DNA of 64,000 nt, taken from the NCBI RefSeq assembly GCF_000711725.1, contig NZ_JONP01000009.1:1-64000 (forward strand). The letters are read 5' to 3'. Within the stretch, counting starts at the first letter, position 1. Every line of letters begins with the position of its first letter. Shown here in pieces: positions 54,305 through 56,803 of the stretch. Position numbers and translations under genes: made by a program. The notes under the pieces were generated by a model. That model saw only the letters and a list, made by a program, of their open reading frames with translations, did no database searches and was not told the DNA's origin. The stretch comes from Roseomonas aerilata DSM 19363. GTDB lineage: Bacteria; Pseudomonadota; Alphaproteobacteria; Acetobacterales; Acetobacteraceae.

Positions 54305-54332
54305 CCTCTGCCGGAACGATTGCCGGCAGAGG
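54305..54332 (+). promoter_or_regulatory. Hairpin covering the ribosome-binding site of the lipoprotein operon
   Basis: CCTCTGCCGG (54305-54314) pairs perfectly with CCGGCAGAGG (54323-54332) around an 8-base loop. The right arm overlaps the GAGGGG that should serve as Shine-Dalgarno for ATG 54340. Such a stem would limit translation until opened. It is unusual in this window, where most genes have unstructured short leaders. Confidence 0.55.
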
Positions 54333-54339
54333 GGTGGCG

Positions 54340-54906
54340 ATGATTTTCGGACGGTTTCGTGGGGGCAGGCGCATCATCGCGCCCGTCGTGGCCGCAGCAC
54401 TGCTCGCGGGCTGCGTCAATCACAACGAGATTGCGATGCGGGTCGGGGCACCTCCGGCTGAGGCCGTGCAGCTTCGCGAGGTGCAGACGGCGCGCTTCGA
54501 AACGCCGGACGAGATGCTTCTCCTGACCGAGGCGACGCAGGTTCTTCAGGACCTCGGCTTCGGAGTTGCGGAGAGCGCGCCGCAGATGGGAGTCCTGACC
54601 GGTTATAAGACGCGTGACGCTGTAGAGGCTGGGCAGGTCGCGGCGCAGATCGCCCTAACTGTCGTTGCGGCGGCCTTCCTCGTGGCCTACGCGCCCACCT
54701 GGGACCAGAACCAGGTGATCCGGGTCACCCTTACCTCCCAGCCTGTGCCACAGAACCGCCAGACGGTGCTGCGGGCCTCCTTCGAGCGCCTCGTGGCCAA
54801 CAACAGGGGCGAGGTTCGCGTCGAGCCGCTGCTGCAACCCGAGATGCACCAGGAGTTCTTCACCATGCTCCGAAACGGAATGGCTATCCGGGGAGGACGC
54901 ACATGA
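54340..54906 (+). CDS. Predicted lipoprotein, paralogue 1 of tandem family
   Basis: 188 residues from ATG 54340 (upstream in-frame ATGs lie before the start-site hairpin). Signal peptide with lipobox LLAGC. The mature part carries the pattern shared by four neighbours: LREVQTARFETPDE, ATQVLQDLGFGVAESAPQMG and VLTGYKTRDAVEAGQVAAQI, followed by a hydrophobic stretch (LTVVAAAFLVAYAP). The C-terminal part is VRLASFER-like, VLRASFERLVANNRGEV. No known domain was recognised. First gene of a five-gene operon; its stop overlaps the next start (ATGA). It should be anchored in the outer or inner membrane facing the periplasm. Confidence 0.8.
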   Translation: MIFGRFRGGRRIIAPVVAAALLAGCVNHNEIAMRVGAPPAEAVQLREVQTARFETPDEMLLLTEATQVLQDLGFGVAESAPQMGVLTGYKTRDAVEAGQVAAQIALTVVAAAFLVAYAPTWDQNQVIRVTLTSQPVPQNRQTVLRASFERLVANNRGEVRVEPLLQPEMHQEFFTMLRNGMAIRGGRT

Positions 54907-55415
54907 CCCTTCGCTATATCGTCCTTCTCCCACCCTTGTTGCTCGGCGCCTGTGCCGGGCAGCCGGAGAGGCGCTTTCAGGCCAGCGACAAGAGTGCAGT
55001 CGAAATGCGCGCGATGCAGGCGCGCGTCATAGAAGGCGACGCGCCGACGGTCACGCGCGGGGTCGTCGCCACCTTGCAGGACCTTGGCTACCGGATCAAC
55101 AAGGCTGAGCCTGCGGCAGGCAGCATCACCGCGACGAAGCTGGAGCGCCTGCGCCTGACTACAGTGGTCCGCCCGGTGAGCAACAACCAGGCGGCCGTGC
55201 GGGCGAATGCGGTCGTCCTCCTGCCTCAGGTGGAGAACCAGGTGGACGATCCTCGATTCTATCAGGAAAATTTCTTCGCCCCCCTATCGGCCACCCTGGG
55301 GCGCGAGGCTTTCGCTGCCTCGGCCGAAACCCTGGTCCCAGAGGCGGCTCGGCCCCAGGTCATCTCCGATCTGCCGGGTTCCGGCAGTACAGCGAGCCAG
55401 GAAGCGCGGCGGTGA
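54903..55415 (+). CDS. Predicted lipoprotein, paralogue 2 of tandem family
   Basis: 170 residues, ATGA overlap with paralogue 1. Lipobox LLGAC. It keeps the family core (MQARVIEGDAPTVTRGVVAT, LQDLGYRINKAEPAAGSITA, TKLERL) but lacks the central hydrophobic segment of paralogues 1 and 3. RLTTVVRPVSNNQAAVRANA matches the LTVTVRP strand of paralogue 4. The C-terminal tail is longer and Ser/Ala-rich. Function unknown; the shared core suggests a common small alpha/beta fold. Confidence 0.8.
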   Translation: MTLRYIVLLPPLLLGACAGQPERRFQASDKSAVEMRAMQARVIEGDAPTVTRGVVATLQDLGYRINKAEPAAGSITATKLERLRLTTVVRPVSNNQAAVRANAVVLLPQVENQVDDPRFYQENFFAPLSATLGREAFAASAETLVPEAARPQVISDLPGSGSTASQEARR

Positions 55416-55825
55416 GGACGATGAGGTTTTCCCTCCTCTTGGCTGCCGGGTTGTTGGCTGGCTGCGCAACGGCCGGCGACCATGCCGCGCAAGTCGGGGC
55501 CGGCGGAGTCAGCAATGACCGCCTCGCCCTCGGTACGGTTCAGCGCGAGATCCGGGTTGGCATGACGACCGCGGAAGTGGTGGCGGTGCTCGGCGCACCG
55601 AACATGGTGACCACCGACGAGCAGCGGCGGGAGAACTGGGTATACGACCGGGTCTCCAGCGAAACCGTCTATTCCTCAGGCGCGGCTGGCGCGAACGTGC
55701 TCCTGCTCGGAGCCGTCGCCTCGTCCGGTGCCACGCGCCGTTCCCAGCGAACCTTGACCATCATCATCCGCTACGATGGAGTCGGGCGCGTGCGGGATTT
55801 CTCCTATCGCTCGAGCAGCTTCTGA
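55412..55825 (+). CDS. BamE/SmpA-like lipoprotein in the tandem operon
   Basis: 137 residues, GTG at 55412 overlapping the previous stop; ATG 55421 is an alternative with GAGG before it. Lipobox LLAGC. LGTVQREIRVGMTTAEVVAV then LGAPNMVTTDEQRRENWVYD is the SmpA/OmlA (BamE) fold signature: R-x-x-V-x-x-G-M-x-x-x-E-V-x-x-x-L-G-x-P. It differs from the other four products of the operon. A glycine/alanine-rich segment (YSSGAAGANVLLLGAVASSG) is inserted before the last strands. BamE-like proteins often interact with outer-membrane assembly, but a role here is not shown. Confidence 0.82.
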   Translation: MRTMRFSLLLAAGLLAGCATAGDHAAQVGAGGVSNDRLALGTVQREIRVGMTTAEVVAVLGAPNMVTTDEQRRENWVYDRVSSETVYSSGAAGANVLLLGAVASSGATRRSQRTLTIIIRYDGVGRVRDFSYRSSSF

Positions 55826-55833
55826 GCTCAGTC

Positions 55834-56391
55834 GTGCATCGGCGCAGCCTCATCCGGTCGGGCGCCTTCGGATGCCTGGCCCTCCTTCCTGCCTGTCAGA
55901 ACAGGGAGGAGATCCATGCCAACGCGCTCACGCCGGCATCCTCAGTGGTGTCGCAGCGCGTCATGCAGACCCGCCGCTTCGATACACGAAATGATACGCT
56001 GCTGCTGCAGGCCGCCGTCGGCGTGCTTCAGGATCTGGGCTTCGTCATCGAGGAGAGCCGTGCGCAGGCTGGCCTCGTGACCGGAACCAAAATGCGCGAC
56101 GCGACGGAGGCCGGGCAGGTTGCCGGGCAGTTGCTCCTTGTCCTGCTCGCGGCCGCGGCCCGCACACAGCACCGCGTCGTCATGGACCGTGACCAGACCA
56201 TCCGCGCACAGGTGGTGGTGAGGGCCGCGCCCGATCGCTCCGGCATGCTCGCCCGCGCGACCTTTCAGCGCGTCGTCCGAAACACCGACGGACAAGTCAG
56301 TAGGTTGGAGACGATCGAGGACACAGAGCTGTACCAGGGTTTTTTTGATCAACTCGCGCAATCGAGCTTCCTGACCTCCCATGAGATCTAG
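55834..56391 (+). CDS. Predicted lipoprotein, paralogue 3 of tandem family
   Basis: 185 residues, GTG start 8 bp after the BamE-like stop. Lipobox LLPAC. It is the closest relative of paralogue 1: MQTRRFDTRNDTLLLQAAVG, VLQDLGFVIEESRAQAGLVT, GTKMRDATEAGQVAGQLLLV. A hydrophobic segment (LLLVLLAAAA) stands in the same place as in paralogue 1, and MLARATFQRVVRNTDGQVSR matches its VLRASFERLVANNRGEVRV. Overlaps the next gene by 11 bp. Function unknown. Confidence 0.8.
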   Translation: MHRRSLIRSGAFGCLALLPACQNREEIHANALTPASSVVSQRVMQTRRFDTRNDTLLLQAAVGVLQDLGFVIEESRAQAGLVTGTKMRDATEAGQVAGQLLLVLLAAAARTQHRVVMDRDQTIRAQVVVRAAPDRSGMLARATFQRVVRNTDGQVSRLETIEDTELYQGFFDQLAQSSFLTSHEI

Positions 56392-56803
56392 CCTTCCATT
56401 CCTCCTGCTCTCGGTCGGCATCGCGCTTCCCGGGTGCCAGATGGACAGCCGGCAACAGGTGTTGGCCACCGCGAACACCCAGGTGGCACAACGTGCGATC
56501 TCCACCCGCACCTTCGACACGCAAGACCGATCCGCTGTGTTCCGCGGCATCATCGCCACCTTCCAGGATCTCGGCTTCATCGTGGACCGGGCCGATGACG
56601 TTCTCGGAACGATCAGCGGAACTCAGTTTGCGAACGGCATCGTGCGCCTGACAGTGACGGTGCGGCCCATCTCCGGTCAGCGGGTGCTCGTGCGCGCCTC
56701 CGGACAGCACAACCTCGATGCGCTGACGGATCCTGTTCCCTTCCAGCGCTTCTTCGACGCCCTGTCCCAGGCTCTGTTCCTCACGGCCAACCAGATCGAG
56801 TAG
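56381..56803 (+). CDS. Predicted lipoprotein, paralogue 4 of tandem family
   Basis: 140 residues, overlapping paralogue 3 by 11 bp. Lipobox ALPGC. The shortest family member: RAISTRTFDTQDRSAVFRGI, IATFQDLGFIVDRADDVLGT, ISGTQFANGIVRLTVTVRPI. Like paralogue 2 it lacks the hydrophobic middle. The end, PFQRFFDALSQALFLTANQI, parallels ELYQGFFDQLAQSSFLTSHE of paralogue 3. Last gene of the operon; the Bug gene begins 78 bp later. Function unknown. Confidence 0.8.
   Translation: MRSSLPFLLLSVGIALPGCQMDSRQQVLATANTQVAQRAISTRTFDTQDRSAVFRGIIATFQDLGFIVDRADDVLGTISGTQFANGIVRLTVTVRPISGQRVLVRASGQHNLDALTDPVPFQRFFDALSQALFLTANQIE

Follow-up and report, generated by a model that had tools for sequence, protein, structure and literature searches.

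A conserved and apparently mobile module of BamE-like and predicted helix-grip lipoproteins in Roseomonas aerilata and other bacteria

The genome of Roseomonas aerilata DSM 19363 (assembly GCF_000711725.1) carries on contig NZ_JONP01000009.1 a cluster of five small lipoprotein genes, here referred to as A-B-C-D-E, which occupies positions 54340-56803 of the window analysed (the whole stretch of 64,000 nucleotides at positions 1 to 64,000 of the contig) and lies entirely on the plus strand. Gene A (54340..54906) is predicted to encode a long lipoprotein of a helix-grip family with a hydrophobic insert (188 residues), gene B (54903..55415) a short member of this family without the insert (170 residues), gene C (55412..55825, GTG start, alternative ATG at 55421) a BamE-like lipoprotein of 137 residues, gene D (55834..56391, GTG start) a second long family member with the insert (185 residues) and gene E (56381..56803) a second short member without it (140 residues). 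The assignments of A and B are based on the alignment and on their tree groups, that of E on its tree group, that of D on its structure model and Foldseek matches and that of C on PF04355, the model and Foldseek. A signal peptide and a lipobox were recognised by eye in all five proteins. The genes overlap by 4 bp at A/B and B/C, are separated by 8 bp at C/D and overlap by 11 bp at D/E, exactly as described in an earlier note made from the sequence alone; a start of C at ATG 55421 instead of the GTG would turn the B/C junction into a gap of 5 bp. The same note rightly recognised a BamE/SmpA-like gene, but listed it as the fifth, and in fact it is the middle one of the five.

The proteins A, B, D and E belong to one family. 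Their alignment contains 14 invariant columns, and the profiles of long (A/D-type) and short (E-type) members matched each other in hhalign with a probability of 99.9 and an E-value of 5e-38, signal peptides included. The paralogy proposed by the earlier note consequently stands, but the core motif given for all four is too strict as written: LQDLGF/Y is strictly kept in A, B and D, while E has FQDLGF; of the four, only A and D match G-x-x-T-G-x-K exactly, B having GSITATK and E GTISGTQ; and the F-x-T element is missing from B. Within its own genome the four-paralogue profile detected only A, B, D and E (E≤1e-5), and a search with A alone recovered the four members plus a single further site of low significance (E 0.24).

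In Pfam and NCBIfam, A, B, D and E gave no hit with an E-value lower than 0.1. Pfam scans of 48 long and 36 short members gave scattered weak matches, the commonest of which occurred in 5 of 48 and 2 of 36 proteins, respectively, and no common family. Sequence profile searches against the PDB with the long and the short members yielded unrelated proteins as best hits (E 0.11 and 0.58), and no match to D was found in phage records. A confident match of all four proteins to a characterised family, which the earlier note had named as an argument against its own view, thus did not appear in the Pfam and NCBIfam comparisons; its statement that the shared core cannot be assigned to a known domain holds for named families, but not for the fold, which is assignable as helix-grip with BamC as the nearest match. 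A, B, D and E constitute an unannotated protein family whose subunits have retained their positions.

The AlphaFold2 (AF2) model of D, calculated from a 48-sequence alignment (predicted local distance difference test, pLDDT, 89.2; predicted template modelling score 0.74), comprises a single domain in its 185 residues, composed of two helices and an antiparallel sheet, with a helix (residues 93-109) between strands. In a Foldseek search the ten best matches of D were all BamC chains, identified by title or chain letter (E 4.5e-5 to 8.5e-4), and VIA-align superposed D on the N-domain of BamC with Z 9.3 and a root-mean-square deviation (rmsd) of 4.5 for 107 aligned residues. On the basis of the model the helix-grip fold is well supported for D, and A, B and E presumably share it by homology to D. 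In hhalign the mature long members aligned over 124 columns with the same BamC domain at a score of 26.2, compared to a maximum of 18.3 in 100 column permutations and to 13.8 for the reversed profile. The BamC profile was made from 28 of 30 loci, two short open reading frame (ORF) picks having been dropped. Since C also matched BamC via its signal peptide when full-length proteins were compared by hhalign, the comparison of the mature parts alone was used.

Gene C is related to BamE. Its product matched PF04355 with an E-value of 2.4e-4 and 21.3 bits, below the cut-off of 23.2, and the family was matched by all 37 aligned C proteins at E≤1 (best 7.8e-7). The C profile detected E. coli BamE at E 1.8e-5 with the signal peptide and at 0.0021-0.0045 for chains without it. 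The AF2 model of C (pLDDT 79.6) shows the order alpha-alpha-beta-beta-beta, and its top four Foldseek matches were BamE chains (best E 6.8e-3), followed at rank 5 by BtiO (9uu1, E 0.016) and at rank 12 by chain 9vnj_B of the membrane-domain complex of the trimeric adhesin AtaA (E 0.14), which we take to be TpgA. A BamE fold is therefore predicted for C by the model. Like BamE (SmpA/OmlA, PF04355), C combines this arrangement with a G-M-x(4)-V-x(3)-L-G-x-P core. It differs from canonical BamE, which is encoded on another contig of the same genome, in branching apart from it and in the Gly/hydrophobic tip of its long beta-hairpin (55682..55723, plus strand), which is located between the AF2 strands 74-90 and 105-121, has a low pLDDT, varies in length and is often Gly-rich among relatives. 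In a tree the 68 module C rows and 14 canonical BamE rows fell on opposite sides of one branch with a support of 99, with a long-branch warning for the canonical proteins; five of 19 canonical loci had been dropped owing to the ORF pick, and from the class sample described below the tree included only 5 of 11 C genes. C is a divergent protein of the BamE superfamily and not an orthologue of canonical BamE.

The recurrence of the cluster was followed in 67 loci, namely 64 from a pattern scan of genome contigs, two plasmid loci and the window. L093 and L094 were excluded as repeats of L029 and L057, and the minus-strand loci L095-L098 were not counted, three of them repeating loci already included and L098 being a pair in genome G010. 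Since the loci were picked by the QDLG pattern, their counts do not represent a random sample. The order A-B-C-D-E was present in 31 of the 67 loci (window included) and the order C-D-E in 27 further ones; the other nine were cut by contig ends (L053, L055, L065, L088), variant (L058, L081, L087, L090) or damaged (L091). A BamE-like gene accompanies family members in 63 of the 67 loci. With start codons set by our own rule, the gaps at the four successive junctions were within 30 bases in 28, 28, 31 and 31 of the 31 five-gene loci.

Apart from the window there are 30 five-gene loci, of which 21 belong to the Acetobacteraceae according to the record titles and the placement of the genera, and the remaining ones to Magnetospirillum, Rhodospirillaceae and unplaced Alphaproteobacteria or Proteobacteria. 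The three-gene records are titled Desulfobacterales, Syntrophaceae, Mailhella, Nitrospirae, Verrucomicrobia, Opitutae, Halioglobus, Gammaproteobacteria and others, and are mostly metagenome bins whose taxonomy rests on the binning as deposited. A less biased sample was provided by a class-wide profile search that matched 19 of 385 genomes, the own genome included. From the other 18 genomes 14 regions were fetched, 11 of which contained a BamE-like neighbour, four of these as two-gene forms with C and a long member only; the remaining three consisted of two long-short pairs without a BamE-like gene and one single member. Within the genus the module was detected in 2 of 14 other genomes, G005 being a same-genus genome carrying the locus. 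Recurrence in other Acetobacteraceae, which the earlier note had proposed as a test, was thus found for the gene order, but its composition, in which a hydrophobic segment is present in two members and absent from the other two, departs from the usual one. Restriction to one strain together with pseudogene-like decay, which would have spoken against the note, was not observed, the order being present in 31 loci and no decay being seen in the window.

Plasmid-borne copies were found in three records, two of Azospirillum and one of Acinetobacter. The latter (L100, 4892-6277) is a three-gene module on an 8-kb plasmid of Acinetobacter baumannii from a paper pulp mill; a RelE/ParE-family toxin gene, a helix-turn-helix gene and a SulP transporter are encoded on this plasmid as well. 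Several individual loci deviate in their structure. L163 (4569-7458), in the 2-Mb genome G246 of the same family, contains two members, a BamE-like gene and one member, followed by two on the opposite strand. An in-frame stop lies within the short gene of the three-gene locus L166 (5453-5962, minus strand), a copy that looks broken. At L091 (5884-6480) a single gene has a front like the long member of L076 and a body grouping with the short ones, and there is no third gene, which is likely a fusion by deletion. The same-genus genome G010 contains a diverged long-short pair (L098, 6654-7726, minus strand), and no BamE-like gene was found within 15 kb of it.

The tree of the family (192 members, 137 columns) is unrooted, and many of its forks are weakly supported. 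A (32 of 32 rows), B (33 of 33) and E of the five-gene loci (33 of 33) each form one side of a branch, with supports of 98, 92 and 97, and the long members are split from the short ones at a support of 99, except for the L091 chimera and two extra members (labelled F) that fall with the short ones. The ratio of nonsynonymous to synonymous substitution rates (dN/dS) was 0.07-0.20 in nine comparisons with two relatives, while the tenth (D versus L030) was saturated; several dS values exceed 1, so that these ratios are rough. Judged from these sequence comparisons, all five genes look to be under purifying selection, and together with the position-wise grouping of A, B and E this argues for distinct parts and not for decaying duplicates. 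The claim of the earlier note that tandem paralogues have been kept as non-redundant parts of one unit is therefore supported by the position groups, the recurring order and junctions and the dN/dS values, with D being less clean. The simplest reading would be a single duplication of a long-short pair before the five-gene loci diverged, after which the copies would have stayed apart in fixed order.

The alternative that the genes are redundant tandem duplicates without a complex, that is, a dosage array of one lipoprotein type, would account for the paralogy and the adjacency of the members. However, A, B and E stay position-specific groups over 31-33 loci, the hydrophobic insert is partitioned between A and D, and the BamE-like partner occurs in 63 of 67 loci, so that we regard a dosage array as scarcely credible.

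The insert itself consists in A of the segment VAAQIALTVVAAAFLVA (54637..54687, plus strand; mean Kyte-Doolittle value 2.36 over 17 residues) and corresponds in D to the predicted hydrophobic helix of residues 93-109 (56110..56160, plus strand), which is inserted between two strands of the AF2 secondary structure. With the conserved Lys and the conserved Arg of the following strand taken as limits, its length is 26-37 residues in all 32 A genes of five-gene loci and at least 25 residues in 29 of 30 D genes of three-gene loci. In D of five-gene loci it is present in 10 of 32 cases, the window's D among them, and missing in 22. The distinction of two members with and two without a hydrophobic segment, as drawn in the earlier note, is hence correct for the window but does not extend to these 22 loci. 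At least one insert-bearing long member is encoded in 61 of 62 loci (32 of 32 five-gene and 29 of 30 three-gene loci), the sole exception being L091 with its fused gene, and we read the distribution between A and D as a division of labour after duplication. In L075, L077-L080, L084 and L086 (records of Mailhella and other Desulfovibrionaceae type) the long members have 237-247 residues, about 60 more than most, and the one of L075 carries the extra stretch between two strands.

The module lipoproteins may be sorted to the outer membrane. The lipobox expression was met by 229 of 255 proteins, some of the other 26 having uncertain starts, and Asp at position +2 occurred in none of the 229, which is consistent with such a location. 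The Asp +2 sorting rule derives from enterobacteria.

Outside the module the own genome encodes canonical BamE, BamD and BamF/DUF3035 of the beta-barrel assembly machinery (BAM). In all 19 genomes with family members PF04355 was detected above cut-off outside the module, and in none of them BamC: PF06804 was not found in the own genome at E≤0.01 nor in the 19 genomes at E≤0.1, with a positive E. coli control. In PMC3359395 BamC is reported to be absent from Alphaproteobacteria, which have an extra lipoprotein, BamF, and the module occurs in alpha- and delta-type lineages for which the same paper reports the absence of BamC. BamF (DUF3035) of Caulobacter resembles the module proteins as an extra lipoprotein in bacteria without BamC. 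However, BamF is encoded by one gene of its own, the DUF3035 match of the present genome lies outside the module, and the secondary structure predicted for BamF in PMC3359395 is unlike the helix-grip of BamC. The module fits the expectation of further lineage-specific lipoproteins expressed by Anwari et al.

Taken together, the five genes likely encode a complex of distinct subunits, and a hetero-oligomeric envelope complex had been suggested in the earlier note. We propose one outer-membrane lipoprotein complex in which A, B, D and E would be BamC-like helix-grip subunits and C the single BamE-like subunit. Its function may be to assist the assembly of outer-membrane proteins, by docking from the periplasm to BAM or to a beta-barrel client in the manner of BamC and BamE; this function is less certain than the complex, and we give it somewhat less than an even chance.

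A number of results weigh against this proposal. The superposition of D with BamC is poor, the ten best Foldseek matches having TM-scores of 0.31-0.37 by query length and rmsd values of 6-10 Å, and in VIA-align an Arabidopsis Bet v 1-like structure (Z 9.2) and a KA1 structure (Z 8.6) tie with BamC. The sequence link between the long members and BamC is weak (P 0.0034, probability 9.5%), the short members reached a score of 25.9 over 34 columns only and in the other BamC domain, and PF06804 matched none of the five window proteins at E≤10. For C no Foldseek match (of 303) had an E-value under 1e-3. The D genes of five-gene loci do not form one group, two label changes being needed and the largest group comprising 25 of 33; all D together are grouped in 60 of 63 cases, with a support of only 37. 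The module is furthermore sporadic, unlike core BAM parts, occurring in 7 of 147 relatives, 19 of 385 genomes of the class and 11 of 398 of the phylum (own genome counted; the last figure obtained with the short profile). Long-short pairs without a BamE-like gene exist (L168, L170, L098, L081), as does C with a long member and without a short one (L169, L171, L172, L176). Finally, none of the ORF families in the flanks was shared by more than 5 of the 67 loci, as judged from all ORFs of at least 110 residues in flanks of at most about 6 kb, within which many contigs end. The unit therefore seems self-contained.

Due to the tie of BamC with other helix-grip structures the fold alone does not prove a role in BAM. 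A, B, D and E share with BamC (NlpB, PF06804) the character of lipoproteins with a helix-grip domain, which is predicted for D by the model and for the others by homology. BamC itself co-purifies with BamA/BamD and binds BamD by an N-terminal linker; a short N-terminal region is present in the module protein. BamC, however, has two such domains per chain versus one in D, and the missing PF06804 match, the low TM-scores and the weak sequence link set them apart. Homology of the family to BamC is accordingly suggestive only, and A, B, D and E are not BamC family members as defined by PF06804.

The helix-grip subunits might instead be lipid-binding proteins that transport lipids at the outer membrane or sense them, in the manner of START and Bet v 1-like proteins, with the hydrophobic helix as a membrane-docking lid and C as a scaffold. 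In agreement with this, plant Bet v 1/PR-10-type and other helix-grip structures are level with BamC in VIA-align (Z 9.2-7.2), and a hydrophobic helix is inserted in the sheet of D, at least one insert-bearing long member being kept in 61 of 62 loci. On the other hand, the ten best Foldseek matches of D were without exception BamC chains, the BamE-like partner suggests a role in protein assembly, and no widely recurring gene family lies nearby. We consider a lipid-related role unlikely, although with an appreciable residual chance.

BamE-like folds also occur outside BAM, as exemplified by TpgA, the helper of AtaA, and by BtiO, an immunity protein of a type VI secretion system (9vnj, 9uu1). 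By analogy to the former, C and its partners could serve one client barrel, encoded at another site, by holding or folding it, and the self-contained and sporadic nature of the module and the rank-12 match of C to 9vnj_B would be suited to such a role. This match is, however, weaker than that to BamE, no ORF family occurs in the flanks of more than five loci, and the window neighbours are not adhesins. A helper of the TpgA type has the adhesin gene in the same operon and a C-terminal OmpA-like domain. C, with 137 residues, contains the BamE-like stretch alone, without an OmpA match, and these features are lacking. A dedicated helper of one surface protein is consequently quite improbable.

By analogy to BtiO, the module could represent an orphan immunity island, in which BamE-like lipoproteins and their relatives would neutralise toxins that competing cells deliver to the periplasm. 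An immunity function of BamE-like folds is known from BtiO and, according to PMC12419801, from proteins acting against lipocone toxins; tandem paralogues and the plasmid records of Azospirillum (two) and Acinetobacter (one) would also fit. However, the lipocone immunity proteins are called rapidly evolving in PMC12419801, while C is not fast-evolving (mean column identity 54%, n=37; dN/dS 0.09-0.12). No toxin-like family recurs beside the module in the 67 loci, and the neighbours in the window encode a gamma-glutamyltranspeptidase (upstream) and a TctC-type receptor (downstream). A PADLOC scan of the five proteins gave no match either, which weighs little given its library of anti-phage systems. 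Judging from the entry titles, TpgA acts with an adhesin and BtiO against a toxin, and no such gene family recurs by the module. We therefore hold an immunity function to be very unlikely.

The Campylobacter operon Cj0089-Cj0090-Cj0091 likewise comprises three little-known lipoproteins and was considered as a counterpart. It was set apart by its published description alone, in PMC11394524 and PMC3100323, according to which Cj0089 has a tetratricopeptide repeat motif and HP1457, the orthologue of Cj0091, is an LpoB homologue. No description of the module was found among titles and opening lines of abstracts in the open-licence literature, which is no proof of its absence from print.

Directly 5' of gene A a perfect 10-bp inverted repeat with an 8-nt loop is located at 54305..54332 on the plus strand. 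Its minimum free energy is -26.3 kcal/mol over 60 nt, with a z-score of -3.1 against mononucleotide shuffles, which are a weak control. It is possibly a regulatory hairpin of the 5' untranslated region. Roseomonas populi has a hairpin with another sequence at the corresponding position (L029, 5981-6003), and none is evident in L030. Promoter, terminator and Rfam scans of the region gave no match.

Within the proposed complex, and in so far as an unrooted tree permits, C-D or C-D-E would be the older unit. A long-short pair would have been duplicated in front of C to give A-B, whereupon A kept the insert and D was free to lose it. The genes represent an undescribed, conserved and apparently mobile lipoprotein module. 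In a bolder version, which we rate as doubtful but deserving mention, it would be a second accessory machine of BAM type, spread by horizontal transfer and built as an independent complex of lipoproteins with BamC and BamE folds and with membrane-dipping elements, in lineages said to be without BamC; it might be a relic of the BamC domain or the domain's origin. With lipoproteins of both folds coupled in one operon in several phyla, concrete genes are available for testing whether substitute lipoproteins exist. Furthermore, the family with its kept subunit positions is a useful model for how a feature, here the hydrophobic helix, is divided within a duplicated subunit pair.

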